Assembly (NCBI GenBank): GCA_003640385.1
Contig: RCAB01000019.1
Span: 310,001 to 374,000 of the forward strand
Length of the DNA: 64,000 nt
Source of the DNA: Setaria digitata
Lineage: Eukaryota; Nematoda; Chromadorea; Rhabditida; Setariidae
Direction: 5' to 3'
Shown: in pieces, positions 25,101-50,379 of the stretch
Position numbering within the stretch: the first letter of the stretch is position 1
Layout: each line of letters starts with the position of its first letter
The notes under the pieces: model-generated
Seen by the model: the letters and a program-made list of their open reading frames with translations, nothing else
Told to the model about the DNA's origin: nothing
Databases searched by the model: none
Program-made: the position numbers and the translations under genes

Positions 25101-28100
25101 GCCATCCTCAAACATTTCGCCGTTAACAGTCATGAATCATAAGTCGAAATTCTGTGTTCAAATGTTCAAATATATAACAGACCAAAAAGTAAGAATGATT
25201 ACTTTTGATTGTTCGATGCCAGTGATAGCACTGTGATGGCACTCGGTATTTGATTCCTCTGCACCAGTATGTATATTAAACCAATTCAAAGCACCAGCAT
25301 AAGAACCCAACAGTATATGCTCGTCGTCAATCTTGAAAAATTTAGTTAAAAAACAATTGCTGAAAGCTACAAAAAAATAGCACTTTATGATCAAAATGAA
25401 GAAATGAAATCTTTTTTTTTTTTTTTAATTTTATGTAGTTCTGAAAAATTACCGAAAAACTACAACAAGTAAATGTCTCTTCGCTTTCCGTGAATGATCG
25501 TACAGGACGAAAGCGACTGAAAGCAAAATGAATATCCTCTCTGAACCTTTCCCGATTCCAAGCAGCCGAAATTAACTAAAATATTGCCTACTAGTAGAAG
25601 GTAATGTGTTATGAACATATGACCATTAAGAAAACAACGACCAAAAGCGACCAAAATTGATCGAAATTAATAAACATGTATGAATATACGCTTTACTTAT
25701 AAAGTAACTAATAACCAATTTAAATTCTAGAAGTGATTATTATTTGCTTTACATTTTGCAGTTTAGATGGAAAACAATTTACCGGACGGCTTAAAAATCG
25801 ATTAGCAATATTTTTTGGCGCAAAGCGTTTCCGCTGTGGTTCCGGACAGTGATGTGGACTGCAGTGAAAGTATTACAGAAGTGTTATGTTAGACTTCACA
25901 GTAAAACAATAAAGAAATTTAGACTTCAAACTTTCCCTCCGAATAATTTTGCCCTCAAAAAATTATTTCTGAAGAATCCGAATAAATAAGTTTCAGTATA
26001 ACATACTAGTAAAGTGAGAAAGGAGGACAAGTGGAAACTGGATTGCGACATGTCGAGTGCTGCTTTCTAAAAAATTAATTTGATGAAAGGAATTGTATTT
26101 GAAAGCTTTTTCTTCAAATAACCCATGGTTTTATTTCGACTTCAGAGTTTTAGAAGAAAATACGAAAAGTACCTGAAGAAATCCGTAATTATTTCGTCAA
26201 GATCTTTTGGAGGAGCTGGCAGTGCAGATGAAAATTGATAATTAGTAAAACAATCACTGTTGCTTGTAAGCTCCAATTTTTTACGATCTGGTGAATAGCC
26301 CACAGATGTTCCTGGAGGACTCCCATCGAAATGACGCCCTAACAACAGAACGCTTAATCATCGGAAAAAATGAAAGGCGCAGGACAAAAATAATGCAGCA
26401 AAATTCTGGAATTAAAAGAAATTTGGCATTTTAAAGACATCTACTTCGTTGACATAAAGTGAAGTAACCAATATTATTTGCTATTCCTACTATAATGGAT
26501 GAAAGCATAATATGTACACACCATTTACTTGCATAATGCACACAAGAAAAACTCACGTCCAGTAATGCTCAACACTTTTGCTAATTTTGGTGTTGAAGGT
26601 GAAGCAACTATCTGGTCCTGTTGCTCATCACATGGTGTATGTTCTGCCCTTAAACTTAATATGTTCACATTTCATGTTATTTCACAATACCATTTAAAAT
26701 ACAAACAATAATTTAGTAAATACTTTCTATCCATTCACATATAATAAATGCAGTATCTATGGAGAACACAAAGCTTTTTGTTCCAGAAAGATACGATAAC
26801 CATTTTCATGAAACTATTTATAATTAATTATTAAGTAATGAAGATCACTAAGTAAAACATTTAGTCCCATGTAGCAAATAGTATAGAGTTCCCGAAAAAA
26901 GCTTTTATTTGCTAAGATCGCCATTTAATTTTTAAATCTTACATAAGGTCGAGTGCTGTTAACCATTCACTTCTTCGACGTCGATTACCACCACCGAAAG
27001 TACTCAAAATTAAAGTTTTTCCCGATACAATATCGTTGTCGACATCAGAGAATGTATTCTCAAAACGTTTCGGCTGGAAAATTCCCCTATCATAGATAAG
27101 GGACTAATTACATTGGACCTCAATGAACAATAAAAAGAAAAAAGGAATTACCAGCAAGCCAATAGATGGCAGGCGAGTGGATACACGACTTGCAGGTATA
27201 TCAGGTAGACCGGCTTCGTCTTTTAAATCACTCGCCGTTTTGAGCAGACCCTTTTTGATCAAATGTTGATGTATGAGTTGCAAGAGTTCTTTTTCATTGT
27301 AAACAACTTTGGTATGAGCAACGATATGCCACTTCCAAAGCTTTTCCTAGAATATTCACAGGATATCACTTATCAAAAACAATCATAATATAATCCTTAA
27401 AAACATATTTTTATATCTATATGCTTTTGGAAGAGAAAAAAAGACAAAAAGATGAACAGAAAAGCATATACTTTAGTCAGGTCTTTCGGAAACTCATGAA
27501 TTTGTTTTTTAGTAATTCTCTCGATTAATAAATGAGCTTGCTCGCAAAATCTAGCGTGTTCAGCACGTCGCTCCGGTAGAACGGGTTCACGCATAAGACC
27601 TAAAATTGAGATAAATAGAGAAAATTGGAGTCGGATGATTCCGCCATGTGTCAAAAACTATATCTAGAAAATCTTGAAACTTAAGAAAACTACAGCCAAA
27701 ATTGCACTTACCGCACAATTCACTGTTTGCAATAAGCGGCATTACTTCAAGCATTTGGCGAACGCTTTCTGAACGCGCCAAACCATTTAGGGCTTGACAT
27801 GCAATCGCACGAAGTGCATCAGCTTCTGTGATCGGCGTTTCTGTATATAACAGTTTTTTCAAGATCTATAAGAAAAAAAAATTGAGTCAATGAAGCTTAA
27901 AACAAATTGAAATTTAAGAACGCACAGGAAACAAAAAAAAAAACCCAATGGTGAAACAATTGATATGAATTTTAACTTTTAAATTCATTTATACGCTGTG
28001 CAAGAATGCATGAGTAACTGAAATGTCTCCAGCAAAAGCTAGCCTTTGTTTCCTTAAGCAAAGACACAGACTGCGCTGCTGTGCTGAGAAAAAAATTAAG

Positions 28101-31100
28101 ACTTTGAACTTGAAGTATATCGTACAAAGCCCCAGTTTCCAATGAGGAAGATCATATATAAGTGAAAATCACCATAATTCCGTTATTTCTTCGAACGGTA
28201 CTCCACATTTTTTCCAGAAAAAATTCCATTTGGGCCTTCCTTTGTTTTCGTATTTTATAAGGTGTTCCGATGCTTCGGCAGCTAATTCGAGAATCAGAAG
28301 CATGCACGTAAGTATCACTAGTTGAAGGTGATACAGCCAGTCGTCCACTGTGCTGAAAAAGATGAACAGAAATTTTTGCAATCTATTGGACCATAAACAT
28401 CTTATTCTCCAACCAGTCCTTGTTATAACGAAAGACAATTAATGCCCTTTTTACTTCCAGTATGTGTCTGCCAGCTTTACCTTTATATGTTATCTCAAAG
28501 ATCAGACAACTCAACAGGGAAAAGAACAAGAAATCCTGAAATTAAAACTTACTCGCTCCAGCGGAGCACACACACAATTTGTTATCACCCTTAAAGCAGC
28601 AAACTGAACTTCGGGGTCAGTTATTAGTTCTCCTTCGCAGAATTCCAAAACTGTCCTGAAATTCGAACACTGTGATAAAAAAAAAAAACCGCCTCACTAC
28701 CACTTAGAAATCGCATGCCCTTCCCTCCTCCCCCTAACATCATATTAGAACTGGTATGCTTGATTATGGAAGCATAAGCTTACCCGACAGCTTCAACATT
28801 TTGTTCCCGAATTTTCAATGTACTCTCGCAAATATCCATTTGGATCCGAGGTACTGCAGAACACATCCACAAAACCTTGAATGTGCAATTTCTATTGGTT
28901 GAATTTTATGCAATTTTAGTCGAAATATAGCGGCCTTGAGGACCATCATAGGGAAAAAAACTCCCTAGTACATTACTATAAATCAATTTCAACAATCTCC
29001 GAAGAAAGAAATCTGAATTAAAAGGTGTCCTTTGTATTAAAAGAGAAGAAACATAAGTGTGTAAAAACAAATTAAAGGGAAATACCGTGCTGTTGAAAAA
29101 AAAAAAAAAAAAAGAAATGCGTAGCTTACATCAAGAGACATCTTCAGAATTTCGATTTTGGAACCACCATTCCAAGAATTAGCTGCACCAACAAGGAAAT
29201 GCATAGTGCGTATAACTCCTAAACGCTTCAATTCTTCAACAGGTCGCCAAGATGAATGTAAACCCAGAGTATGCAACAGAATCCAAACACAAGTTTTCAA
29301 GTTCTCATCGTCAAGATGCATGCCCTGTAAGAAAGTTTTGCAAAGAAAAAAGTCAACAGGAAAATAATTACTTATATTCAATATGATGAATATCTGACAC
29401 GACAATATTCAACCTTGTTAGCCGGTAAACCATGAACACATGAAGGAATGACAATATCCCTAAGACACTGCAAACGAGATACATGAGTTCGTTTCAGATG
29501 TTCCACTTTGACAAAAATGTGGGCAGCCATATAACTGAAACATTAGAGAATATGGATAAGCTACAGATTGCAAAAGTCAGTAAATGAGATTAATGGTGAT
29601 TACTTTTTGGTCAAGTAATATTAGGAATTTTCTATTACTAAAAAATTATACCTTCGGAAAGCCACGCAGGTATTTCTGATAGCCTGCATACTAGTATAAA
29701 GATGCTCATCAGAAAGAACGTTATCTGAATCTTCTTGTAGGAGGGTTAAGGTCGAAATCTGAAATGAAAATAAGGGAAAAAAGTCTGGAGATACAGATAT
29801 ATTCTTCTGTCAAGTAATGCTTTGGGACCAAAGAATTCAAAGCGCACAAAAAACAATTGATATGAATCACTTTTTGCCAAGTTAAAATCCACCTGTATCG
29901 AATTACAAGGAAAAAGCAAGATGAAAATGTGAATACAGAATATACTTCAGAATAAATTCTAATTACAAACCAGTGTAAAATCACTACCAATATACATTCC
30001 CAAACAGAAGATATTTCAAAAGGCACACAAATTTTCTTCTAAAATGCTTACATAATTGAACAAACGCCGAGGTCCATCATAATCATCGAACCGCTCAAGT
30101 ATAGGTCGAAACTGGAATGCGTGAGTAAAAAACATTGATGAGCCAGCTCGACCGCTTTCATAACTATGTTCCAAAAGCCACAGTGCATAACTGAAAGAGA
30201 AAAATTTCAAGGAAAATAATTTCACACGGAAGAATAAAATCAGTTATTGAATACCATTACTACAACAAAAGCCTTCTATGAGGAGTACAAAATGAAGCGT
30301 AACTTTTCATATATCAACCTTAAAAACCAATATTAAGATACTACGCTGACTTATGAACTGTCCAGAGAGGTTCACATCATTACACAATGCAGTGAGCTAA
30401 TGATACCATCGTAATCGAACATAATAATAATGAAATAGATGGGTAACTCACTGAACGAGTTCATTAAGAGTTTGTTCTGGCAAAAGGCAAACACCCTCCA
30501 TTGCATCCGCATTATAAGCCAGATAATATAAGCACGTCCCAACAACGACAGATGCCAATGAATCGCGTTCTATACGAATTAAAAGATCCACTCCACCAGC
30601 AGCTACAAAATCCAGTGCCAATCTACGGTGAACCAAAAGTCCGGCAAGATACTAAAAAAATAATTCAAAGAAACATTATGTAAGAAACAATCGCTCATTA
30701 GCATTTCCATACAGCTTTCCATATAAATTAGGAGATTCAAAAAAAAAAAGAAAAAAAAAAAAAAGAGATCCTAAATGATTAAAAAAAAGCAATACAGATT
30801 TCTTATTAGCTGGTGAATTATCTAAAATAATAATTCCCATTGTCTTGGTACAGTCGATTACCTTCAGAACATCAAATATGAGTCGACTATCGTGACTTCG
30901 TGCACCACCGAGATATCGTAAAACAAGATCTAGTGAACGATTCTCGTATGTTTCTTTCAAAAGCTGAAATATTTAAATAAAATATCACCAGGCGACTGTG
31001 ATTTGAAACTACATTCTCAATGAGGAACAGAAATACCTGGTACTAGATATTTTATTTCGCAACATTAAAATTAACACCACTTACAACTTGGCTACATAGA

Positions 31101-31333
31101 TTCTAAAATCTCAAATTAGTTGTAAACTATTTTATATATAAAAGTGAAGTACATCCTGATATTCTCCGACAGGTGTAAGGTATTGAATAATGAGACGCTG
31201 CTCCATAACAGTTGTTAGCGGAAATATTCGATATTCTCCAAGACGTCGCTTTTGCATTAATGTCCACTGACTATTACTTTTTCCATCAATAATAGATCCC
31301 AACGATGCTGTGCTTTCAGAATGTGCCTAAAAG

Positions 31334-31364
<31 letters not shown>

Positions 31365-33509
31365 CTGAAATCGATTAAAATGATATTACAATACCATTTA
31401 AAAAATCATTTTTTTTTTCGTGTCATTCAAATACCTGTTATAATACTCAACCAACACTAAATAAAATCAAAAATCATGTTCTGCTTGATTAAGTTAGAGA
31501 TCAGAACAAACAATCCTAAAAAGAGAAACGGACTTAAAATATGAAGAAATTACACTATCTGAATGGAAGCAATAAATGTCTAAAACAACTTTTGAAAATT
31601 TCAACAACTTCAAATCCATACTTACACGATGTTCTTTATCTAATTTGACTTTTTTCCGCGGTGGTACAGTCACCTCTAGATTTTCGGACATTGAAGTTTT
31701 GCAAGCCGGTCCACTGAAACTACTCACAATTAAGAACAAAAAAACTTGACAACTTTGAATCCCGAAAAAAAAGTGAAAATAAACCTTATTCTCAAGATGG
31801 ATTTCCTTTCTTCACTATACAAAGGCCCTATTGAATTCATTGGAGAAATTGCTACTGATGGTCCCGATGCTTCCTCACCGGAGCACTTCGTTGTTTCACG
31901 CTCTTTCAAAATCTACAATAAATCTAACTGTTTGACAGAAATCAATACTTAGCTTTCACTTCCCGTTTTAATAAGATTTCTCAGCAGATGAAAACATAGA
32001 TCGGCCGGCAAACATTAATGTGTTTTAAAATTGCAATTTTTAAAAAAGTTTCAACACGCAGACGCTTTACTTTACAGTTCATTACTGAAATTTTTATCCT
32101 TGCTCGTCTTTTCTTGTACATAAGAGTTGTCCAACTAAGAAACAAAAGTGTTTCTTTTTTCTGATTAGTGGATTTTATTTCTTTCAGTAGCTACATAATT
32201 TTCCACTAGTTCTTTTTTTTGATTCTTCTGCACAACTTTTAAAAATATAACCAACATCAGCCAATGAAGGTCTTTCACCACTATGAAATGTTTCTCTTGG
32301 CATACCAGCAAACGGACCACCATTTTCAGTATCTTCCTCTTTATTTTCTTTGTCCGGCTCTGATACTTCCATTGCTTCTTCTTTTTCTTTTTCCATTCGC
32401 TCCTTTAATAGAGACAGTGAAAAATTAAAAGGAAAAATCTATAAGTCTAACAGTTGAATTTAAAGCCATCAATGAGCGGAGCTACATCAGGCAGAATTTA
32501 TGTAACCAAAACTGCTATCAGAAACAAAATAGCTTACAAACAAATCCTTTAAACGTCTCAGTGCAATTGGAATCAGAGCAGAGTTTTCTGTTTTAAGACT
32601 ACTTGCAACACTTGTCACATCTAAGGCAGCAGCCAGCAAACCAAAGGAGTAAGCTCTTAAATAACAGTTGGTCGCATCGCTTTCTGCCCATCTATAAAGC
32701 TGCGGTATCAAACCTTCTGGTTCCTGAAACATTCCCACAAAAATAATAATAACTCTGTGCAACTTTCATGAACAATGCCTTTGGAGATTCCTACTTTTGC
32801 GCATTTTTCTTTAATGGGAGAGAAAAATTTCAGTAGGGAAACTCCTAGATGTTGTAACCAATAAAACTTACGGATAAGACAGCAGAATCTAAACCGGGAA
32901 TAAGATTGAGCAACAGTCTTGCGGAGGCAATATTCAATTCGATGTCATCGCGGGACATTAAATACGACACAAGAAGCTGAAAAGAGTTCCTTCATTAGCG
33001 CAAACAGTAAAACAAATTTTAAAAAGAGCACTATGATTTTCACAAAGTTTACGTTACAATTTCCTTTACCTTATTCATGAATTCTTCATAGCGACTGATA
33101 ACTTTTAACAAATGGCCCAGGATGCATGACGGATATGTTTTGGCCGGATGACGATCATCTAATGGATCAGGATCTTGCTTCAAAAAATCATCTGTTGCTT
33201 CCTCTATTAGTTCCGAAAGTCTACAATATTCTCTAGGTGTAATAAAAATAATAAAATAGTAATAAAACTGAACAAATTCAGAAAGATGCTGCTCGTCCCA
33301 ATTTTTTCAAAGATTCAGTACTGACAAGTGCATCTTTGAAAACTGATAACAAACCTTATTAGGGATGGTTTGACACTAAATGAGGCATTGTCATTTTCAG
33401 CTTCCCAAACAGCAAGAATAGCTTGCAATTCTCCCGCGGCGCTTGACTGACTAGGATGAGGAAGATGGGACGAGTGTGTCCCGTGGTTCGACCGCGACGG
33501 AGCAAACAT
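22143..33509 (-). CDS. dcaf-1: DCAF1 (VprBP), CUL4-DDB1 substrate receptor
   Basis: Nuclear substrate receptor of the CRL4 ubiquitin ligase and scaffold of the EDVP complex. The model has 35 exons and about 1,614 residues (human about 1,507). Exon 5' ends run 33509, 33220, 32976, 32723, 32402, 31912, 31713, 31326, 30963, 30651, 30190, 29758, 29534, 29324, 28875, 28655, 28352, 27865, 27599, 27346, 27073, 26648, 26338, 25858, 25575, 25331, 25106, 24859, 24436, 23896, 23641, 23378, 23050, 22618, 22297. Phases close at every junction. Landmarks in order: N-terminal [10 protein letters not shown], helical-repeat region with [13 protein letters not shown] and [16 protein letters not shown], LisH motif about 902-933, then the C-terminal WD40 region. 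That region has both WDxR motifs (WDPR, Arg1291; WDVR, Arg1328) used to bind DDB1. The family block [10 protein letters not shown] is followed by an acidic Ser/Asp/Glu tail. The donor of exon 5 (about 32,256) is uncertain. The last intron (donor at 22,479) rests on phase only; otherwise the protein would end near 22,459. The tail finishes in a basic RRQRRAERE. Confidence 0.96.
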
Positions 33510-35231: not shown

Positions 35232-36690
35232 TGATCCCAATTATCGTCATAATAATAAATTTTCAACGCTGTCTATACTGGGTTGGGCCGCGTTAAATCA
35301 TTGTAGCGGCATTAGTCCTGGATGAGTCGCAGATGGTTTCTTCATGGACAGAGTGGTGGGTAAGGCTCGGTCCTCAGAGGTGATGGGGTCAGTGGTGTAT
35401 TTGTAATTTGTGATGAAGTGTCTGCCAGTGAACTCTCTAAGGTTTCATCAAAGGTTGTAGTTAATGTGTGCCAATAATACCGATGTGAGTCATGAAATCG
35501 ATCGGTAAAAAAGAAAAAAAAGACGTTCGAAAAAACTGACTCTTGCGTCTTTGCAGACGTGACGATTTCCCACTTCGTATCCTTGACTATGGCTGCACCT
35601 ATTAGCGTTTTGTCATCTTCAGTGCAGACTTTGCACCTGCGTGAACTGAAATTTTGTACAGGTCGGATTTCCTGATGTTGATGTCGTAGATGTGTTGTGA
35701 AAAGCCATGGTACGCATCTGCAGTGTGCAGATTTACATGAATGTGGTTGCATGCTGGGCTAAGCGATACCGTCTCTGCTTCATCAAAAAGTGTTGAAAGT
35801 ATTCTCTGGAAGCAGTTTCTTATTTTAGTGTTCTACCTCAAACTGAACAATGTGTGAAGGATTCGCCAAAATGATATGAATTATCTTATAAGAGAGAAAA
35901 AATATGAACGAAAACTAGATGTTTGTTTGAGGTTAATGTGGAGTGAAGAGTTCGTGCATTGCTTCATATATATTCAGGCTTTAAGTCCTGATATATTGAA
36001 CTAAGTGCAGCAGTGTACTGGTTGTAGTAGCCCTGCGCAGTTTTCAAGACCGTGCTGTGCGCAGTGCTCGGTCATGTAATCAAGATGTGAAGTTTGGTTC
36101 AACAGAGTGTATATTTTTTTTCAGATTTTGATGCAATGATAAAGTTAGTTGTCTCTTAAGCCACTTGCAGTTTGTGTATTTCGGTATTTTTTTTCTTTTT
36201 CTGGTATGTTTTCTTAGGGATATTTTGTATTTTACACAATTTGTTTCATCCGCGGAAAATGCTACTCATTTTGCTGTACAGTGCTTTTGGTAAATTCTCA
36301 GTACGGAGTCCTCTGGTATTCATATTTGAAATTTTTATCTGCAAATCTGCAAGTTGGTGCACTGTTTTCTAAAATTTGTTCTTCAAAAAGAAGTGCATAT
36401 ATGAAATAAAATATAACTCTCCAGTAATACTCTTGTATTGTGTTAGGTGTTTAGTAATAGATGCCGGACTGGAGATGGTTGTGTAAAGGAGCGTTGTGCT
36501 CACTAAAGCATGTTTAAACTGCGCATTTATGAGGCTAAACTTTCCTTTTCTGGTCGATCCCAACACTAATGGTCTGAAGACTTCTTACACTCTTTTTCAT
36601 AACCAATTATGACCGTTATACACTTAATTAGTTGTCAAAAACTGATTGCTGAAAAAATAGAAAGAGGACTGTTTCTCACTTCAGATTCTT
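35232..36690. other. Region between uncharacterised locus and Trabid-like gene
   Basis: Mostly non-coding AT-rich DNA. A minus-strand frame at 35,342-35,752 (136 codons) has a protein-like end (TTFDETLESSLADTSS) but also a run of Phe from a poly-A/T tract and no splice or start support. I treat it as unproven. The rest holds T-rich tracts and no feature I can name. Confidence 0.45.
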
Positions 36691-36701
36691 TGCAGAGCAA
36701 A
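36691..36701 (+). other. Putative trans-splice acceptor of Trabid-like gene
   Basis: TTCTTTGCAG ends at 36,695, six bases before the ATG at 36,702. The frame is open further upstream to 36,609, but family homology begins right after 36,702. The short leader therefore decides the start. Confidence 0.6.
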
Positions 36702-39700
36702 ATGGCAAGCGATGTAATAGGGAAATGGAGTTGTTCACAGTGTACGTATGCAAATTTTCAAACGGCAAAAGTATGTACAATGTGTCGTACACCACGACAC
36801 TCAGTTTTCATCACCGAGCCGCCTTGTACTTCTAATGCTGCTTGTGGTAGTGAAGAAACTCAACAACGGTGGCCTTGTCCAGATTGCACATACCTGAATG
36901 TCCTGAAATCTCGCCATTGTACAGTGTGCATGTGTAAACGGCCGAGTAATTTTGATACTGAAGATGAAAAGAAATTCGTCTCCAAAGGTCACAAATTTTG
37001 AAAAATAAAGTGATTTTCAGATTTTTTTTCTGTTGCATTTTCTTGCCTCTCAGCAGTATTTTTTCTGTTTTTGTGACAGTACATCTATGATGTGGCTTAA
37101 TACAGGTTATGAGACGGTGCTTTTTCTAGGATTGCGCATGAGGCATTTCTGCAACTAGTATGCATTCTTTTTAGCTTCAAATATTTATCTAATGTCAGAT
37201 GAATGCTCAATCGATCTCGAACAAGTTGACAAATTAGGAAAGGCATTACATAAGTGGGATTGTTCCCAATGTACTTACAAAAACTGGCCTAATGTTAAAC
37301 ATTGTACGATGTGTGGAACACCAAAAGATTATGTTTCTGTGGGGATTGGTAACGACATTATCGATCAGGAATCCAATGGTTTGTTTTAAGTTAATGTTTT
37401 TTATATTGTCGATTCCTCTATAGGTGGCAACAAATACTTTCTTAAGTATGCATCTATTTTTTGACATGCTCTTATGTTAAAATCTATTTTTTTTAAGGTG
37501 ATGATGCTGCAGCATGTCGCCTTTCAGTTAAGGAGGAAATTGGAAATCCATCAAAATATACAGAGAAAGGTTTAGAACTGTGAATTACTTTCTTTTTTTT
37601 TTCCTTCTTTTTCTGGTGTAGATACGAACATATATAATCAGTTCTATAAGAATAAACTATAAATTGCTGCATATCACAAATTTTTATGGAAAATTTTTTG
37701 GAAATTCTAATTTCTTTTCAAAAAGGTTTGTAGGCAGAATGAGGGTTTTGTCCATGAATATTTTTCTGGTAAATTTACGGAGAAAATAAGGTTCATGTTC
37801 CCTCGATTCTGAGCTATAGGCATTGTAATTTTAGCAAATGATAATTTTTCAGATCACGTTGAATTAGGGAGCGAAGACCACCATGGCGTTGGAAAGGCCT
37901 CCAATGTAAATTTAAATAAGCGGATTACTTTTCTCGACATGTATCTTTCTCATCTAAACAAATCAGTAAGTTGTCAAGGAGTTATATGGCACATCCTTTC
38001 CTATTTGATGATTTTTATGTGCACATTTTTATTTTGACATGAAACAAAGTGTAGGTTGATACGGGTTGTGCATCATTCTTGGAAACGTGTGCAGAAATCC
38101 TCCGACAAAGCAATGATGCTGAAGCTAAACTCATTCATTACATTTATCATTATGGTGAAGGCAATCGACGAGTCAATGGCTTTGAGGTTAATTTTTGTTA
38201 GTTTTAATATTGTGCGCTTCATGTTGCTCTCTGCTGGTAGCTGATGTTTGTCAGAGAATTCTCGTGGTCTGATATCGGACTATTCCTTTTAATTTGCTCT
38301 TTATTACTAATCTCTTCTATTTTTTTTTATTTTTTTTTTATTTTTTTTTTTTTTTTTTTTTGAGAGAGGAGAAGATAAGGAACAAATTCTTTTCCTTCTT
38401 ATTATTAGTTCCAATAAAATCATCACTGAGGTCTTTTTTTTTTTTTTTTTTTTTTTTTAATGAAATTTTTGCCTTGTGATGTGATAGCTCGAGCAAAATA
38501 CATTTGCGCATTAGGATTGCGAAACAAATCCGTCACTCTGCTTTGCGGCATGTGTGGTTGCGATAGCCAACATGTGACGGTGTTATTTTAAGCTAATTGA
38601 AACTTTTAAAGTTCTAGCAAAACAAAGTGTTGCTTCCATTTGTCATTCTTATTAGTTTTTTGCCTTCATGTATATATTTGTTTTAAGCGTAGAAGTAGGG
38701 TTTTTTTTTTTTCTGTATGCGGAAACTTGTTATTACAAACGGAGTTTTCAGTTGTGGTTTTGTGGAAGAGGTAATCGTTATATTTACAGAATATGTTACT
38801 GAATGATGTTGATGAAGAGAGTGCTGCAACAGTTGTCAACCGCTCAATTATAGATATCATTCGAAGCAAGAATAGTAGAATTTTAGCAAGTGTACCAAGA
38901 TTTTTTATGGATTCCTTGTCGTGCACAGTTGCAATTCCAGGATTAGGTATGTAATGATTTTGTGTTTATCCGAAGGAACCAAATATTTGTTTTTCTAAGA
39001 GGTAAGCTGTATTGCACTGTCATATGAGTTTTACTTTTCAGAAAGATAAACTGGTTCATGTTATATATTTTTTTTCATACGTTTTCTATTGATCCTTTTG
39101 GTTTTTCTGGAGATTCTGTACTCTGTGGCTTCTGTATAAAAAATTTGTCTTAAAAAGTAAAGGATTGCATTGTAATTATTGCATTATTTTTGGAGCAAGT
39201 GGTGACTGTTCTGATGAGATTCACAAGAAAATACGTGAAAGTATGTACGAAGATTATGATATGACTCGTGTTGCCAACAATAATACCTTGTTCACCCTGC
39301 CAAACGGTAACTGTTATATCATTAATTTCCTCATTGGTGCCATACCACATTTGCTGTCCGTGATGCCTGATGGAGAAAAAAATTACCTTTGTAATATGTT
39401 TTATTTCTGGAAGACCTACCTCACGGTATTAGACTGCTTTCGTAGGGTTGCAATTACAACAATTGGTTCGACGCTATTATTAGATGCATTAAATCTTAGT
39501 GCAAATGCCCCTGAATATAAAAGAATTATACTAAAGAAAATTTCCAGCCATTTACGACTTGCGACCATGGGTAGTTTCCGGTGAAAGTAATCTTCGTGTC
39601 ATCATGGACCTCGACGATCGTCGTAAGATATTGAAAATGTTATGATTGTTTTCTGCTTTGTGAATCAGCCTTATTGAACATTACCGAAATATTTTTTCGG

Positions 39701-41610
39701 GAATGTTTACTTTGGAAGGGGAAGTAATGTCAAGCCCTAATACACCTTATCCTAAAATTATGTCCCAGCATGTTTTTTTTTTTAGAAGTACTTGATACAG
39801 TGTGTTGCATGGATGCACACTCTCTATCGGGACCAACCGGCTGCCAGACTTACGCGCCACTGTTATTGCGAAACCGTGGAGGGGGGCACAGTCTTGTAGA
39901 TGCTGTTTCTCAGGTATTTATATAGGTTTTTTTTTGGATTTCAGTTAGTGGAGTTCAAATTGTTTCTGTAACAAATTGGTAACAGAATTGATCGTAGATG
40001 TGTTTATAATTTATTTCCTTTTCTTCTAGGCATTATGGGGTGTAATTGATAAAAGCAACACACTTCGTGATGCACTATATCACACGTTGTATGCAATGGA
40101 GACTAAGTAAGTTTGTTTAGATTTCTTTTTTCATTTTCCGAACTAATTTCATCTATTATGTTGTTTGTTCTTTAGCCCAGGATTAGTGTAAATTCGTGTT
40201 TCCATCTCTTCAAGCAAGTTTTTCAGTTTTTTTCAGCTTTCGAGGTCGCTGGGCATCTTCTCTAATGAAACTTGGATTAAATTTTGACATTTGGATGATG
40301 CAGCGTCATTGGTCAAGCATTATTGAATGTAATGATCCTGGTTTCCCGTTAGAACAGGTATTTATAGTGATTTTTTTCGCAGTAAAATTCTAATGTTTTC
40401 AGATCTTATATGTTTACTTGCAGTATTTTACTAGTTAACTTGGTGTTTGTAACGTTTCAGATTCATATACTTGTTTTGGCGCAGGTGTTGAATCGTCCAA
40501 TTATAGTATTTCCTATTGAATCATCAAAACTAAACCCATTCCCTGCTCGCGATGGACGTCCTAGTGGTTGGAAACATCCAGTTGAAGGATTTTATCCACA
40601 ACTACCTGGTTTGAACAACTATCGATTGTGTCCACCCTTACTGCTTGGCTATACTAATGGGAACTTTTATGCACTTGTATTACCTCCACGTCCTGTTATT
40701 GGTTAGTTTTCTTATTTTAGGCCATATAAGAAAAATTTACAAAGGACTGGTAAAATTCATTCATTTGTCATAAATGTTTGGCTGACTTTTAAACAGTATA
40801 GAGAATGTAAAGGAGGTCCTCTTTTGCAAAAATTTATACAAAATACAGTGTATCAAACTACAAAGAACTGAGATGGAATAATCCAACTTCTACAATTCAG
40901 GACGAGTGGAAACAGGTCGTCCGTCACGCATTTACCGATACATACGCTGCCCACCTTATCCTCTTACGGAATATGTACAATTTGTTATGGATGCTAAGGA
41001 AGCGGAAGATTTTGTTAAGGACAATATTGTTGTTGATGTAGATTGTAATGGGCAACAATGGATCTACCATTCAACCTTTGGTTCGCCACATACAAAGAAT
41101 GATTTAGGCTTTCTCTTGTGGAGTAAGCTCTTATCTGATTTTTTCCAAGTACTGAGTTTTTCTAAAATTTTATTTAATTCATTATGACTTGATTTCATTT
41201 TTGGCTGTGAAATTCATGAAATTAAAAATGAATTTTCTTCAGAAGATTGGATTAAGGCGCATTTTCCAAAAATAATTCACGAGGACTGTGAGGTAAATAT
41301 TATGATCTTTGGTCAGTAGCATGTCATACCGTATTGGTTATACCTTTCCTATTCTGGAAAATTTTGAAATTGCTTAGCGTCTTTTAGCTGTTAACGCAAG
41401 TGTTTGTAGTAAAATTCTGTTTGTCGTTACTATACAGAATAAATTGTAAATTATTATATCTTTTTGTGTACCGTATTAGGCTTCAGTCCGTAGTGATCCT
41501 ACCAGCATATTTTCAGAACACAAATGTTATATTTTTAGGTGCAGAATGCAGTTGCGGCTTCCGAAGATAGTGCTTCAAAAGTGGGCCGGATTAGTGGCAA
41601 ATCACCCTGA
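36702..41610 (+). CDS. ZRANB1: Trabid/ZRANB1-like protein with catalytically dead OTU domain
   Basis: Homologue of the K29/K33/K63-linkage ubiquitin hydrolase Trabid (653 residues; human 708). Exons: 36702-36987, 37199-37378, 37498-37569, 37853-37965, 38055-38186, 38790-38946, 39196-39306, 39786-39913, 40030-40106, 40237-40357, 40461-40701, 40901-41122, 41243-41292, 41539-41610. Three NZF zinc fingers have complete cysteine sets (11/14/25/28, 59/62/73/76, 117/120/131/134), each with the CTY ubiquitin-contact motif. A poorly conserved middle replaces the ankyrin-repeat part. The OTU fold follows, with DAVSQALWG, LVLAQVLNRPIIVF and LGYTNGNFYALV. The active-site motif reads GGGHSLVD where Trabid has GDCLLD, so Cys is Ser386. 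In the second motif His is Asn527. The spacing of the two positions (141) matches human Trabid (Cys443 to His585, 142). The protein should still bind chains but is not expected to cleave them. It lies near DCAF1 in divergent orientation. Confidence 0.93.
38310..38460 (+). repeat. Long poly-T tracts in Trabid-like intron 5
   Basis: Two T-rich runs (about 38,321-38,361 and 38,434-38,458) lie inside the intron between exons at 38,186 and 38,790. Open frames across them encode only Phe runs and are not genes. Confidence 0.7.
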
Positions 41611-44600
41611 TGAAATCATTTTATTGTAGAATATTAGAATGGTTATGACTGTATTAGTTTGTTATAATGATTTCGATGAAAATGTTTTTCTTTGACTAGG
41701 GACAGTAGAAACGAAAACTTTTTGTTGTCATGCATTTGAACTATACAGAATGCTGTCTTTGCTGATTTCTGGAAATCTTTCTTGTGAAGCAGTCAATTGT
41801 GGTTTATTAATTAGACGATAAATGGTATAAAGTTTGCATTGGATATGAACTGGTGGTGTATTAAAATACTGCATGCTGTCTATATTTTCGTCTAAGTAAC
41901 CGCTTAGTAGTTTCGGGATATTAGTGTTAAACTGTTTTACGAAGATTATGTCGAATTTTTTTTACAAATGTTTCTTGTATTTAGTTTAGTTTCTGAATTT
42001 CTATTCTTCCACTGATTTCCTGATATCGTTTAATGGTAAAAACTCTGGAACACTGAAATCAATAGAAAATCTGAAGGTGAAGAATTTGAAAAAAAAAAAA
42101 GAGATCCATTCATTTTGTGTCGATCAGGGACTGAAAGTTGTGATACCCAGCCATCTTTTTATCTATCGCGGATGTGTAAATGTGGCGTCTTCGATACAGT
42201 GTTGCTCTTTTTAATTCGTCCGCCATTACAATTTTGTGGGAAAAGACGAAATCATCTGTTAGCAAAAGGAGTTTTGCAAATTATAGAAATCCTGGTAGTA
42301 CGTAGTGCCTACAGGACTTCGTGAGTCAATGCTTTGTCTACTGTTGTACTCATGAGCTATCTGTTTTCAGCTAAGACCGCTGACGACCGTTATTGGTCCG
42401 TTAGGTTGAACGTTGTTGGGAAAGATTCTGAGCCAGTAGAGCGTGGTACTGAATTTTAATTATATTCTTGTGATGCTTTGCATCCCACTGCTATAAAATA
42501 CGGGACTTCGGTATCGATTGATGTTTTCACACCACAATAAATAGATTTTTCTTCCTGTTGATGGGATAGTATAGTTTGTATCAAGTGAAACCAGGAAACG
42601 CTTGAACCAGAAATGTAAATATTTTTCAAAACTGACGGGTGGAACCATGCCAGTTGGACTGTTTGTGAGCGTTTTATTTTGACAAGATTACCAATAACAA
42701 CAAAAAGAACATCCAAACAATAAACGTATATAAATTACGAACTTTGCTAGTACTTTACCTGAAACCCGAATTTAGTCACTATTGCACATGGTCAATCCAT
42801 GAACAAATTATGATTACGGAGTTTTTGAATGGGAGTCTTATCACCTTCCAGCCTATACTCATCTCTGCCTTTGCTTACAGAGAACCAGTTAATCTGTTAA
42901 TGCTCTCAACAGATATGATTTGGATCAATTATTTTAATCGTCCAAGCGTAAATGTTAAAAGTCTTTCTGCTTATCCTCATGCGATAACCTTACATGTGTC
43001 ATTCCATCGAAAGGAATGCAGTGAACTTAACGAAAGACTTGACCATTATTTCATCTTCCAGGATAGGGAAGTCAAAGTTTACCAACATGAACTGTACATG
43101 ATCCCTCTCCATGAGACGGCAACTGATGATTTGTATTTGTTCGCCAGTTATCAATCGTGGTAGACATGAAACTTATCGTGTTCGACGCTTGCGATTTAAA
43201 CGTGCGCAAGGAGTAGCCATCCATCGCGAAGGATATCTGACTGTTTTTAGATGAGTCACCTGTTATTTCATTTGCTACCCATGGTGCCGAGAATGTTATA
43301 CACTGCTTGCTAGTTTTTCCCGTGCTAAAGAAAATTTGTAAATGGACGTTCTCGGAACTTGTAGGCAATATAAAGTTTACGCTTGTAAAAATTCAGAAAT
43401 ACTTAGCTCTTCTTGAAGCTAGTTTGCATAGGTTGATGTAAGCGTTCAGAATCACCTCTCACTATTATGGTACTACAAGTTTTTCAAACTTTTTTCTCAA
43501 AATACCTCCCAGAGGTGGAAATACAACGTTCTTATCTTAAATAATAACCATGTTCTTTCAAGAACTTTCAGTTTAAAGGAAAGAACTCTAGTTACCATTT
43601 TGACGCCAGTGATTGAACTCCAAGAGGTATACTTGTGGTATGATTCGACGATCTTATTTGGCCGTCACTTGTAAATCCTGCAAATTTCTAACTACAGGTG
43701 GGGTTTTAAGAAATAAATCATTTTAACAAAAATGAATTTCGCAAATTTCGGCTCAGTAGTTGACTAATGCTATTAATCTTAAAAAAAATTAACAAGAGGT
43801 TTGAGAGTATCAGAATAAGCACCAAAGTATGCCAGAACTTGAAACTAGCTCTGGTAGTTCAGTTGCATCATTTCCTGGAAAAGTTGGTAGAAACCGAAAA
43901 AATTCTCTTTTGCAGAATATGTTTTTTAAAAGCCTAACTGGAGTGAAGAAGTGCTGTGAAAAGAGGAATAACCTTTCAGCCAAAGAGATTCATCCTGGTT
44001 ATCACTGGTTCGTAAAACCCCTTCCAATATCAGCCTTTGAACGTCACTACCTCCTGATGTTAGATTTTCATATATTTTTCTATCAGTTGACAGACTGCCT
44101 GAACAAATGAATTAGAACTTTAGTTATGACTTACATGATGAAGAGAATTTAAAAATAAAATTTTGCACAGTTACTCGTTGTCTGCCTATCAGTTAATAGA
44201 GATTTAATAGAGCGGACATATGACACTGGAATGATTTTGTGGAAACTCCACTAAACCTTTGAGTGATGCAAGAGCGTCTCTCTTTTGGAAAAAATTATCT
44301 TCTCCATATAGGTTGGGCATGATACTGTAGTTTTTGCTGGATGAAAAACTTTTCAAAGACACAATAGAAGATTCCTGATTCTCATCGCACTGGAAAACAT
44401 ATCTTTATTTGCTTTAATTTTTTTAATATTGGGAATAGATGTATTCTTTTCTACTAGAACTAATTTAAAAATATACATTAAATGCAATAGATTCTAGATT
44501 TTGTGCAAGTAATTATTCTAATAAGGACAATTTTCCTCTTGCTCAGTTTTTACATTTTGAAATTGGTTTCATTGGTGTCTAATTATCATTACTCCTGTTG

Positions 44601-44671: not shown

Positions 44672-47600
44672 TCACTGTTCACTAACTTCCTTTTCCTTTA
44701 GAGGAGTGAATTCATCCACATCGCTGATGGCCGACATTGCTATTGCTGGTTCGTAGTAAAGATGGGATTTTTGGACTTGCTGTTCGTTAAATATCCTATA
44801 TGACGTGTCCATAAACTTAGCGCGAGCAGCTTAAAGTGAGGAGAAAAAAGATATTTCATTGGAATATCAAGTAAAATTATTTATAATTATAAAAGAAACT
44901 TCACAACAAAAGATCAGACTCGTCACTCTGCATAGCAAAGTTACATGAAAACAAACGTACCCCTACCAATTTTCCTTTTATGTCGTTGCCTAACGTTGTA
45001 GAGCAGTAAGCCAAACATAATGAAAAAAGTGGGTACGAGGAATAGGACGATGATGAGAAGGATAGCATTGTGCGCACTCCAGCTGGATGCCATACGTGAG
45101 AAACGTTGATTGAACAACGCCAAAAGATTTGCTGAACTGTTACTCATCAAGTTTCGTGGTATCCTATCTGAATGACAAAAAGTAGAAAAATTAGCAGGTA
45201 AATCAAATTTCCATAACTACCAGAAAGATCCGGACTGAAAATCTTTATCATTTCGATGAAAATGTAACCTAATGTCCGTGCTAGGGAAGGTTCGCTTCTG
45301 TAGGTCGTTTTGTCAGCAAATTCGACTTCAACAATGGCTCGATATTCCGTAGAAGGCATTAAATCATTTAAGTTAACCATCGTAAGTGAACTATTCAGTC
45401 GCACCTAAAATAATACCTTACAGGTTTGATTTTAAAACAAAAATAGTAGTGAATAAAATGAGGTGTATCTCATGACTCCAAGCTATCTGAATAATTTGAA
45501 ATTTTTGTAACTTCGCGAATACAGGATTACCGTGTGTGTATAGTCTTTGTCGGAAACGTTAGAATAAAGAATGAGGAAAGTTTCGGGAGATTTCACGTAG
45601 CTCGGAGCACTGTAATTCCAACTTAAATGAAGAATGGTATCCGAAACTGGAGAAAATAAGGTAATATTAAGTTGTACATCATTCATATCACCGTTTTCAG
45701 TTTGAAGCCAATCGGTAGGTGGGCTTACTATAACACTCTGATCCAACATCTTCGCTAAAACTCGAAACTGGTATCTAAAATGTGAGTTTTTTATAGTTTA
45801 CGAAAAAGATTTGTTACACATTTAAAATTCAGCACGTCTGGCTGCTTGAGCTACTGAATAATATGACTGTTACTGCTTCATCAGTAAAAATCATTTCCTT
45901 TTTAAAGTAATAAAACTGGAATGAGAACCATAAATTCCTAAGACTTCAGTACTCTGCAGTTTTCACCTTCGAGTTTCAGGTATTTTGCGTATGTCTGAAA
46001 TGACCCTCCAGATCAATCCTTATTGAAATAATTAATACTTGTAAACCCTTATATTTTTTTTTTAAGTTTTAAGAAAGATCACAAATTAGCCTAACCTGTT
46101 TTTAGAAAGCAGCATCTCGACAGTAACAGTGCGCATGTGTCTGTCTACTGTGCCACCTATGATCCATTCCTTCTCATTGCCTTCAGCTCGAAATTGAACT
46201 TGAAATGAAGTAATTTTGTTTAGAAGTGGGTGATTTTTTGGCAGCGACCACATTACTCGCACCTTTTTTCCGGAAATGATCGCTCGTGGTACATCAAGTG
46301 AAAGCTCCCCCGCTTCCCCCGTTTTCGATTTCGGTTTTCTCTGTTTCTTAATCACTTTCGCTTTAGATCCTCATTTTAAGCATGGAAATTTAAATCAATT
46401 TAATTGGAGCTTAAAAAGCCTAGGTCAAAAAGAGTAGTTATATGAGATTTCTCAAGTTATCGAAACTACGAAAAAATGTGAAGGTTTTCAGTATTATCAA
46501 ATATTTAACGCACCGATTGGTATTAATTATACGCTACTAGATAACTTTTAGGGCTTAAAGAATTTAATTAGCAAAAATCTACGCACTGAAGTCTTTCCGC
46601 TTTTACGTACTTCCAGGTATAATTTAAACAAATTAAACCTCATCTTCTTGATAATGAACAGCACTGCTACCAGAAATCAAGGTCTTAACACCTTGATTTT
46701 CCGCTTGACTTTTTTCTTCACCTTGTGAAAACACTTCTTTCGCTGAAAATCTTTTTTTAATTTTGAAATTCCCAGAAATGTATTTCAAAGCATAGGAAGC
46801 AGTGAATTCGAATGATTTTAAATAAATACAAATAATTAATTACGAATGATTTTTAGGTAGGCGCTGGAACGTGTCATGTGATTTGTGTTATCGGTCACTT
46901 CACATGTATACCACCCTTCATCTTCTCGTTGTACATCGGAAATTTGCAAACTTGCTGTACCAACCAATCGGATACGTCTTTTTCCAATTAGTGCCATACG
47001 TTTGCCATCTGCACATGACAAAAAATTTGATTTGAAAAAATTGAGGAAAAACAATTAGAAAATGAAGGTAAACAAATTGCATAGGCATCTGATTTCTTTG
47101 TTTCTTTTTTTTTTTTAATTTGATTCAAATTATCTTTTCTATTCGTTCCTTCTAGTTTTAAGTGGCAGATCTAAAACTTAATTCTCAATTCTAATAACGT
47201 TTCCAGCTACAAATGCTCAGGATTCAATAAACCTTTGGTCCAAATGGTCTTTGTCGTTCTTGGTACCACCAAACAAACCATCTGAGCTGTTTCACCAATT
47301 GATTTCGTGGAATTTTCTGGTCCTTGTAAAATTAAATTAATCTGCTGATTGACTCTATTATCGACATAGAGATTCATCGCTCGACCACGTTCCAATCCAT
47401 TCCCATAAACTTCTGCTTCATCCATTGCTGCACGTGAAATACACTGTAATGTGGTAACTGGATCTTTCCTTTATAAAATGTGAATCTGAAAGATGGAAAT
47501 TATGAATATACCTGTACACTACCCGATAAGGCAACACTGGAAGTCAGTGTAGCATTTATCGGGTTGGTAAAAAAATTAGTATGCGGTGGCACACCAAGCT

Positions 47601-50379
47601 GATCCATTGCATCAATTAGTGCTAACCCATTCATATACACCATGGGAATCTCGTAATGCAAATTAAGCGCCAAGCAGCTTAACTAAAAATTGGAAATATT
47701 TAGATCAATAAAGTAATTTTAGCTTGAGATTTAGAATAGTTATATTTGATTGATACAGAGAAATTCCGACATAATTCAAAAAGAAAATTTTTTTAAAAAT
47801 TCTAACATTTCAACTCAATCATTTTTCGTCTGGTCATCCTCAAAATTCTAGCAAATGGGAGAAAAAAAAAACAGTGAAGTCAGAACATTCAGAACGACAT
47901 CAAAATGTTCCAAACAGTCAGCTAAACATAGAGAAAATTTGAGAAAGAAAAAATTCTTCTACCTTCCAGCTTTTATCAGCCGCAAGTTGTCCTAACATAA
48001 GCTGTACATCGGTTGGTGCATGCACCCGTAAATTGTAATAGACTTTAGGAAATTCAACAACAGTATGAGAAAAGAGCGCCATACTTTCACAGATGTAAAT
48101 ACCAGTATCAGCTTCATTCACTTGTTGGATTTGCAAATTACCCCAAATTTGACGTAGTCGTGTTTTTTCGCTACTTATTGATATTCCTGTTTCACCGGGA
48201 TACAGCTACACAATAATTCAAAACATATTTAAAAAAATTGCATACGCAAAATAATCATCCCTTTTTAGCACCATCGTCCTCATCATAATAATTATCACTT
48301 TCCCTGTTACTGTTACTTGGAGTTACCGAATTTCAACCTGGCAGTGTTGACAAAAGTAATAAAAAGTATGGGAAATGATTACCCTTGTCCAAACAATTTT
48401 TGCAGATGTGACAATACATTCCAGAAGCACTGTTTGTCCTTTAACAGCATCAACAATGATGGGACCACTGAGTGAGGATAATGTTGCAGGATAGACAAGC
48501 ACAGGTGTAATGCTGTTGTACTTTTTTGCCACTACCTATATCATAAATAACAAACTGATTAATTAAATAAGTACATATGTACATTATATATAACAAACTG
48601 ATTAATTGAATAAGTACATATGTACATTATATATAATGTATATATATATATATATAATAATGTACATATATATATATATATGATTCGAAATAAAAAATGT
48701 AACAATCAGAATAATTCAGAAATAAAAAAAATTGTAAAACTCACCTCCAATTTAACAAAATACGGCGATTTTCGAGTCTGATTGGTAAATGTATTACGAA
48801 CAACGCAATAATAATTACCTGAATCGGATAATTTTGACAAAGGTATTTGCATGCCAGAAGATGTTGACAAATACCTTTCGTCACCTGGAAAACTACTCGT
48901 AAAAGTCACGTTTCTTTTCAAAATAGTTCTTGCTGTTTTCCTTTAACTTTTTCTTCACTAGCCAAGATCCGAAATTTGCATATAGATAAACAGCAACTAC
49001 AAGCAATGAAAGACATGAAAAGGGCCACGAGAGTTTTATTAATGTGGCTGCGCAGGGAAACAGATGCCAATATGCATTTAATTTTAAGAAATGAGGTTGA
49101 TTCTTGAGGTTTGTGTTATTCAATGACAACAATTCAAGAATAACTGCTAAGAGAAAACCTACGAATTTTAAATATTCTGTTGAATTAACATCAAAACTTA
49201 TAGAAGAATAAGAAAACTTTTTATCACACTATTCAAAGAGTCGATATGTCACTGATCATTACCCAGTATCCCTAGAAGTTTATCATGGCCTTCTTTTTCG
49301 AACGTTATCTCCGGAGGACCAGGAATCACATCAGGCATCCCCGAACATGGCAGACGAGCAATCTGCCCTTGAAGTACTGTCACACTCTAAATAAAATAAG
49401 TTTACTTAATATAGTAATTTACCTTCGATCGTTAATAACGGACCACTAGAATTTAATGAAAATGCACTGTATTCAATAAAGAAGTAAATGGAACCTCTGG
49501 TGCAACTTTTTCAAATTTAGTAATCCTGGCACGACGGAATTTCACCGGAGCGGAGACGAGACGTGTATCGATATGTTTTCCGTTTGACAGTCGTACTCCC
49601 CGTATTAATGCTGAACATTGATAATCTCCTTCGGCATGGTGCTTTCCATTTTGTATTTGCAAACTATAAGTTGATATATGTGCCAAAATCAGGATTTTAA
49701 GACAATGAAAAGGCCATTCTGTTGAATTTCATATTGGCTCAGTAATTTATGTCTACGCCTTCAACAATGAGTGAGAAAATTACGTAGGCCCATCAACAAG
49801 CAGCTCGTTGCGCATATTTTCGCTTTCGAGTTCACTGATAGGTATACCGTCCTTGATCCAGTGTACATCGGCTATTGTCGCTCCACGCCAACCCGGCTCT
49901 ATCTGACATGACATACCAACGGCTTTGCGCTTAACCAAATAGTACTGATCTGCATGTAGTATTAGTCTCGGCAGTTTGAAGATCCCTAAAAGGAATATAG
50001 CATAGACAAACATTTCACCAACTGGAAGGAGTTGTGATCAATTTTCATCAGTCTATTACAGGTTTAACTTCTCAACCTTGTCTTTTATTTAAAGGGATGT
50101 CCCTTTCGTAAATCGTAGTTGTTCGGCTTCCTATCATTTCATATAATTAAGGGCTTTTTAAATAAGTGGGATTGACATGCGGTGTGGCCGAAATCAGCTG
50201 CATCATTTTTAATTAGTAAACAACTATTTTGCATAAATTTATTACATATTAAACTCTAAATCAGTAAATGTCCAGACGACAACACAGAAATCAAACTTAC
50301 TGTTTTCTGAACAAACAAGAAACATCTGATCTGTGAGTAGCAAAATCGCTGAACAATATCTATACAAGAGATGACGCAT
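44672..50379 (-). CDS. Ig/FN3 transmembrane adhesion receptor (5 Ig, 2 FN3)
   Basis: Predicted type I membrane cell-adhesion or recognition protein, about 918 residues. Exons: 50379-50301, 49985-49784, 49663-49495, 49386-49263, 48884-48745, 48535-48383, 48205-47963, 47682-47512, 47443-47233, 47008-46844, 46742-46639, 46346-46096, 45774-45531, 45404-45269, 45167-44961, 44829-44672; all phases close. The signal peptide lies in exon 1. Five Ig domains have cysteine pairs about 53/110, 164/218, 278/328, 373/428 and 484/533. Two FN3 domains (about 600-690 and 700-790) follow, then a transmembrane segment about 832-854, a basic stop-transfer (RQRHKRK) and a cytoplasmic tail of about 64 residues with YYEP and SAISDVDEFTPL. 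The 5 Ig + 2 FN3 order resembles Turtle/IGSF9, but I cannot claim orthology. The acceptor at 46,346 is the weakest. Reading through the donor at 44,960 would give a tail ending after six residues (GTFVFM). Confidence 0.9.
48548..48682. repeat. 44-bp tandem duplication plus (TA)n tracts in receptor intron
   Basis: Two 44-base copies (48,548-48,591 and 48,592-48,635) differ at about one position. Each contains the palindrome GTACATATGTAC. TA-rich microsatellite follows to 48,682. All of it lies in the intron between exons ending at 48,745 and starting at 48,535. Confidence 0.85.

Follow-up and report, generated by a model that had tools for sequence, protein, structure and literature searches.

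A TRABID (ZRANB1)-like gene with serine and asparagine at the catalytic cysteine and histidine positions: a probable natural pseudo-deubiquitinase

Can a deubiquitinase lose its catalytic residues and yet be kept for its ability to hold ubiquitin chains? TRABID cuts K29/K33 ubiquitin chains and also binds them, and how much the binding counts by itself is, to our knowledge, not settled. The window analysed here, a stretch of 64,000 nucleotides, contains a TRABID/ZRANB1-like gene (36702..41610, + strand) in which the codons for the nucleophile and the catalytic histidine read as serine and asparagine. We consider it probable, on the evidence set out below, that we are dealing with the orthologue of TRABID (ZRANB1) in a nematode-like animal, and that it has turned into a pseudo-deubiquitinase. 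If so, an animal with the reader but without the cutter separates the two functions of TRABID, and supplies a natural form of the trap mutant.

How sound is the gene itself? Its 14 coding exons, set by GT-AG borders and phase compatibility, are joined across 13 GT-AG introns into a frame of 741 codons plus stop, with no internal stop (model A). Exon 1 (36702..36987) holds the start codon and NZF fingers 1 (residues 9-28) and 2 (57-76), located by PF00641, the finger pattern and PDB matches, and exon 2 (37199..37378) holds finger 3 (residues 115-134), located by alignment to 4s1z, its second match. Exon 3 (37498..37569) is linker and exon 4 (37853..37965) is linker or the beginning of the AnkUBD-equivalent region, both being placed by GT-AG borders and phase. 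Exons 5 (38055..38186) and 6 (38790..38946) are AnkUBD-equivalent by position, exon 5 having no significant sequence match. Exon 7 (39196..39570) spans the AnkUBD end, with its FTLP motif, and the N-terminal OTU helix where Asp404 is expected and a Ser is aligned. The Cys-loop, GGGHS in place of TAGDC, is in exon 8 (39786..39913). Exons 9 (40030..40106) and 10 (40237..40357) encode OTU sequence, exon 11 (40461..40701) the OTU core and the His-loop GYTNGNFYALV, and exon 12 (40901..41122) the C-terminal part of the OTU; exon 13 (41243..41292) and exon 14 (41539..41610), the latter with the stop codon, follow. In all 14 exons the codon score of the gene's own frame exceeds that of both other frames, a result to be taken as a consistency check because 13 of the same exons had served to train the scores.

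One segment of exon 7 deserves comment. Positions 39307-39483 form an in-frame stretch of 177 nt with a plausible GT donor and a weak AG acceptor, and this stretch may be a further intron, or one that is retained in some transcripts, in which case the protein would have 682 residues (model B) instead of 741. The alignment score to TRABID rises from 145 in model A to 193 when the stretch is removed, and to 177 with a shorter removal (model C), a gain that can be mostly explained as gap cost. The codon score of the stretch, -0.04, lies between exon and intron: the flanking parts of exon 7 have values of 0.31 and 0.04, the 13 remaining exons range from 0.16 to 0.58, and the seven introns longer than 170 bases reach -0.18 at most in their best frame. 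The codons at the catalytic positions are identical in models A and B. At the beginning of the same stretch is the sequence LPNGNC, which by eye resembles an OTU Cys-loop. We do not take it as a rescue nucleophile: the aligned Cys-loop is a long way downstream of it, and LPNGNC either belongs to the possible in-frame intron or borders it. The resemblance is probably due to chance. Apart from this look-alike, inspection by eye of the three-frame translation of 36600-41760 revealed no alternative exon with a Cys-loop.

What occupies the active site? The exon at 39786-39913 reads ...LLLRNRGGGHSLVDAVSQ and the exon at 40461-40701 reads ...LLLGYTNGNFYALVLPPRPVIG, each with GT-AG borders and compatible phase, which bears out the initial annotation in placing AGT (39890..39892) and AAC (40662..40664) in these exons. 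When the protein is aligned by phmmer to PDB 3zrh (human ZRANB1), Ser474 (model A numbering; AGT) stands opposite the Cys of GDCLLD, which is Cys443 of TRABID, and Asn615 (AAC) stands opposite the His of GYTRGHFSALV, which is His585. The same assignment, already proposed in that annotation, is returned by all six MAFFT alignments, that is, three modes by two gene models run with one program on overlapping input. In the same six alignments human TRABID, Cezanne and A20, and a Cezanne-like gene of the same genome, all have Cys and His at these positions. Might a nearby Cys or His sit in the active site instead? We looked for one and found that the closest Cys to Ser474 is Cys458, 16 residues upstream, with none within 15 residues, and that the closest His to Asn615 is His586, 29 residues upstream, with none within 28. 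The spacing had been described as intact, which needs correcting: from Ser474 to Asn615 the distance is 141 residues, versus 142 in human TRABID, with compensating indels in between.

AGT and AAC are each one base away from a Cys or His codon, so that one might suspect both codons of stemming from faulty assembly or sequencing, or from a null allele carried by the sequenced individual. Error, though, requires two independent mistakes that hit precisely the catalytic codons, and the domain has 11 further changed core invariants and a changed LNW motif besides; we regard an explanation of this kind as very improbable.

The TRABID triad is given as C443/H585/D404 (PMC10723793, Figure 1 legend), and the fate of its third member is less clear. 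At the Asp404 position the window protein has Ser in all six alignments, within a weakly conserved helix. In pairwise alignment of this helix the A20 pairing beats 986 of 1000 shuffles (14 reach the real score), whereas the pairings with TRABID and Cezanne are at chance level, 473 and 766 of 1000 shuffles, respectively, reaching their scores; moreover, the TRABID pairing favours an EVLD motif closer to Ser474 over the helix aligned with Asp404. Because the helix is weakly conserved and the pairwise alignments disagree, loss of Asp404 is less certain than the losses of Cys and His, and we say only that the third residue is perhaps lost also. For A20, both Asp70 and Thr97 have been named as candidates for the third triad residue in the text cited (PMC10284599). 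Two residues that flank the TRABID nucleophile, R438 and A451, have equivalents that are kept in the window protein in all six alignments; both are reported to be mutated in patients, and A451V to break STRIPAK binding in human cells (PMC10723793).

Is the domain that carries these changes truly an OTU, and is it TRABID's? The Pfam OTU family, PF02338, matches the window protein with E=2.6e-7, and when PDB entries are ranked for the OTU part, human ZRANB1 (3zrh) comes first with 2.1e-18, followed by OTUD7B/Cezanne with 4.1e-11 and A20 with 1.8e-10. Chance resemblance to an OTU is ruled out by the Pfam value together with the leading PDB value. The gene thus has a PF02338 domain with two catalytic residues replaced, which is one of the marks of an OTU-class pseudo-deubiquitinase. 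Like human TRABID/ZRANB1 (3zrh, 4s1z, 5af6), the protein has three N-terminal NZF fingers, then a C-terminal A20-like OTU that is closest to TRABID, in the same order and with the same placement of the catalytic positions. It differs from the human protein in having Ser for Cys443, Asn for His585 and possibly Ser for Asp404, in the reading of the AGDC loop, here GGHS, and in its AnkUBD region: from about residue 200 to the Cys-loop phmmer gives no significant match. A FastTree tree of five sequences groups the window protein with TRABID with a support of 0.931. The unrecognised AnkUBD and the long branch of the window protein would fit another NZF and OTU fusion, one that is not TRABID and never was an active deubiquitinase. 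Such an origin seems improbable to us. Three NZF fingers precede an A20-like OTU; TRABID leads the PDB matches of that OTU and comes first or second for every finger; the tree groups the two proteins; and the FTLP boundary motif can be aligned in models B and C, if not in A.

If the protein is a TRABID, its OTU has changed a good deal. Its branch length in the tree is 1.32 versus 0.33 for the Cezanne-like gene, about four times as long. Human TRABID, Cezanne and A20 agree at 48 core positions, of which the window protein retains 35 and the Cezanne-like gene 43 (L-INS-i), so that 13 are changed in the window protein, the two catalytic ones included; over all modes and models the count for the window protein is 33 to 35 of 46 to 49. 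The window protein shares 59/149 core residues (40%) with TRABID; the Cezanne-like gene shares 104/158 with its human counterpart, Cezanne (L-INS-i). On these alignments the OTU is recognisable but appears accelerated, and the earlier description of the rest of the OTU scaffold as intact therefore overstates the case.

The NZF fingers present another picture, and here the claim that all three are intact has stood up well. PF00641 (RanBP2/NZF-type) is matched in three stretches, and the finger pattern occurs at residues 9, 57 and 115. Each of the three fingers has its zinc cysteines and the T-Y-hydrophobic motif for ubiquitin, and 27 of the 27 positions of a pattern of our own choosing are kept if Val is accepted as the hydrophobic residue of finger 2. 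Among PDB entries, TRABID NZF1 is the second match for finger 1 and the first for finger 2, and 4s1z is the second for finger 3; RanBP2, with eight fingers summed, is the first match for fingers 1 and 3. Human TRABID NZF1 is reported to contact the distal ubiquitin through T14, Y15 and M26 (PMC4386640) and the proximal ubiquitin through Y15, N17, W18, S20 and T25 (PMC4386031). Finger 3 of the window protein has six of these seven contact residues (T14, Y15, N17, W18, T25 and M26), with S20 replaced by Asn. Finger 1 has five, with W18 changed to Phe and S20 to Thr, and finger 2 has four, with Val for W18, Lys for S20 and Val for M26. According to the pull-down results cited, W18 and T25 are both required for human NZF1 to capture K33 di-ubiquitin (PMC4386031), and finger 3 has equivalents of both. 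At the level of sequence, then, finger 3 appears to keep most of the K29/K33-selecting surface. Human TRABID nevertheless cautions against carrying the K29/K33 property over directly, since there it belongs to the first finger: human NZF3 is reported not to bind K29 chains (PMC4386640), and the puncta formed by human TRABID C443S are reported to need NZF1, not NZF2 or NZF3 (PMC4386031).

What would a protein of this composition do? With the nucleophilic Cys gone, and with it the His that serves as general base and perhaps the acid too, the OTU would be unable to cleave ubiquitin. That the window protein carries out no hydrolysis we infer from this chemistry and from the human C443S mutant, for which cleavage is reported to be abolished while polyubiquitin co-precipitates (PMC10723793), and which is reported to gather in ubiquitin-rich, NZF1-dependent puncta (PMC4386031). 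One might argue that the protein is still a hydrolase by way of other residues, for instance with Ser474 as nucleophile or with a displaced His such as His473. A Ser nucleophile is possible in principle, and His473 is immediately before Ser474; moreover, according to a review in the part cited here, some supposed pseudo-deubiquitinases have since been reconsidered, and USP53 and USP54, which had been annotated as inactive, are reported to be active. The human C443S protein nevertheless fails to cleave, as do Drosophila CG3251 and Otu, in which a Ser is accompanied by intact His and Asp (PMC4654579), and the closest His to Asn615 is 29 residues off, so that residual hydrolysis seems to us improbable.

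Our best reading of the gene is therefore as a natural pseudo-deubiquitinase which would resemble the laboratory trap TRABID C443S. The two share the Cys to Ser change and intact NZF fingers, and trapping of ubiquitin would be expected of both. The window change differs in being natural, and in being accompanied by His to Asn and by many other OTU changes, which may alter binding between OTU and ubiquitin. At the level of sequence, the three NZF fingers retain the contacts for the distal ubiquitin, and finger 3 also retains most of the surface that selects K29/K33. In the proposed mechanism, the protein would bind atypical (K29/K33-type) chains on its targets, and would shield, cluster or recruit by way of these chains, much as inactive human C443S does in cells. 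As at least two of the three catalytic residues are lost and the three fingers are kept, the window protein probably reads or holds atypical ubiquitin chains rather than cutting them. A reader or scaffold in place of a hydrolase had been proposed from the start; the loss of catalytic residues and the retention of the fingers agree with it, but its maintenance by selection is not established. As for a scaffold, change of A451 breaks STRIPAK binding by the human protein, and the equivalent residue is kept here, so that a scaffold role via the STRIPAK complex may be entertained as a speculation.

Is there another gene in this genome that could supply the missing activity? Copies were sought, exon by exon, over the assembly of 75,555,924 bases (75.6 Mb). 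With the window OTU as query, only its own six exon matches were found in the whole assembly, and the N-terminal 481 residues found their own eight matches and one weak match on contig C201 (E=0.0175). The human TRABID OTU found only the window gene and a gene on contig C866 whose OTU is of the Cezanne type. These searches of the assembly thus gave no second intact copy of TRABID, which would have marked the window gene as a decaying paralogue; the nearest relative found is of another subfamily. A search of the assembly with the Pfam OTU family matched contig C623 only and missed both the window gene and the Cezanne-type gene, from which we conclude that exon-by-exon profile searches are insensitive here; a further, diverged TRABID copy in the assembly remains conceivable. 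Other loci with NZF fingers, on C157, C70 and C239 (minus strand), are by our reading FUS-like, RYBP/YAF2-like and RanBP2-like, respectively, and were set aside as not TRABID. In viral and prokaryote contigs, 3 and 20 stretches, respectively, matched a pattern, and none was confirmed as an orthologue.

The Cezanne/OTUD7-like gene (G000:C866:18454-21600) is a control for OTU evolution in the same genome. Its OTU, assembled from five joined exons, has OTUD7B as its top PDB match (E=8e-80) and keeps GDGNC, the acid in an LEKD motif, and AHFSALV. It shares the A20-like OTU with the window gene, and differs in subfamily and in having kept Cys, His and acid. Human Cezanne carries A20-type zinc fingers. 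A search for such fingers matched contigs C697 and C261 only, and because none was found on C866, the Cezanne label for that gene is a statement about its OTU domain only. An OTUD5-like gene, the subfamily name being our own reading, lies at G000:C623:59636-62830, with GDGACLF and HYN motifs. Since the Cezanne-like and OTUD5-like genes keep Cys and His, catalytic loss is not common to every OTU gene of this genome.

Has the window gene been kept by selection, or is it decaying? The initial annotation took the preserved frame to argue for selection. We put a figure on decay with a neutral stop-only model on the gene's own codons, in which indels are ignored and which was computed after both codons had been noticed. 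Of random substitutions in the gene, 4.2% create a stop, and 0.11% are missense changes at any one of the two catalytic codons. Replacement of both codons with no stop arising is most probable near 40 substitutions, where the chance has its peak of 3.4e-4; when the 27-position finger pattern must also survive, the peak is 1.2e-4 and is reached near 30 substitutions. Because the calculation is post hoc and ignores indels, it is an argument, not a test; the neutral figure together with the intact fingers would favour a protein that has been kept. The accelerated OTU, for its part, would fit relaxed constraint or early decay as well as it fits a new role. The gene might accordingly be an early unitary pseudogene, wholly functionless and drifting, that has acquired neither stop nor frameshift yet, and the 13 changed core invariants of 48 are what such a history would leave. 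Against this are the 741 codons without internal stop, the 13 GT-AG introns, the fully kept finger pattern and the two neutral peaks, with the reservations just given, and we think a pseudogene unlikely, if a good deal easier to imagine than a pair of errors. The claim of selection over decay is thus supported by the open frame across 14 exons and by a chance of at most 3.4e-4, computed post hoc, and is weakened by the acceleration of the OTU.

If the gene is instead a maintained pseudo-deubiquitinase, how far does this extend? In one scenario a whole animal lineage has turned its sole TRABID into a dedicated K29/K33 reader, having lost the entire triad and kept the NZF module. We hold this broader proposal tentatively, at somewhat less than an even chance. 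Were it true, the A20/TRABID branch would have its own natural pseudoenzyme, and TRABID a non-catalytic function that is separable and selected. Perinatal lethality is reported for mice that lack TRABID or are homozygous for C443S, partly on the authors' unpublished data (PMC10723793); a dead orthologue would hence imply a different requirement for TRABID in the worm.

Natural OTU pseudoenzymes are known from the OTUD4 branch (PMC4654579) and the OTULIN branch (PMC7862380), as reported in the parts of these papers cited here. In the titles and abstract openings of the open-licence papers listed we found none reported for the A20/TRABID branch. Drosophila Otu and CG3251, of the OTUD4 family, share with the window protein a natural Cys to Ser change in the OTU, and in their case inactivity is reported as shown; they differ in keeping the catalytic Asp and His, in having a Tudor domain, and in having no NZF fingers (PMC4654579). 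Knock-down of CG3251 in Drosophila is reported still to give a phenotype (PMC4654579). OTULINL/FAM105A is likewise an OTU-class pseudo-deubiquitinase with a disrupted triad, but it belongs to the OTULIN subfamily, has an active OTULIN in the same genome, and is reported to be unable to interact with ubiquitin (PMC7862380). The window gene, by comparison, is the only TRABID-like copy found, and it has kept its ubiquitin-binding fingers.

Several other features of the assembly and the window were observed. The exact SL1 leader is absent from the assembly, which has one copy with one mismatch, not followed directly by a splice donor, and two copies with three mismatches; a match to the SL1 RNA family on contig C355 scores 56.6 bits, against a gathering score of 75. 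It may be that the spliced-leader genes are absent from the assembly or have diverged. Matches to the motile-sperm-protein domain in the assembly number 23, and these, like the SL1 RNA match, are compatible with a nematode. Within the window, several open frames occur at 22826-32765 (- strand), three of which were tested and gave no Pfam match; these may form one large gene, which by eye looks DCAF1-like. Open frames are also present at 45483-49728 (- strand), two of them with immunoglobulin or fibronectin type III matches under the Pfam cut-off, and this region is perhaps a neural cell-adhesion type receptor.
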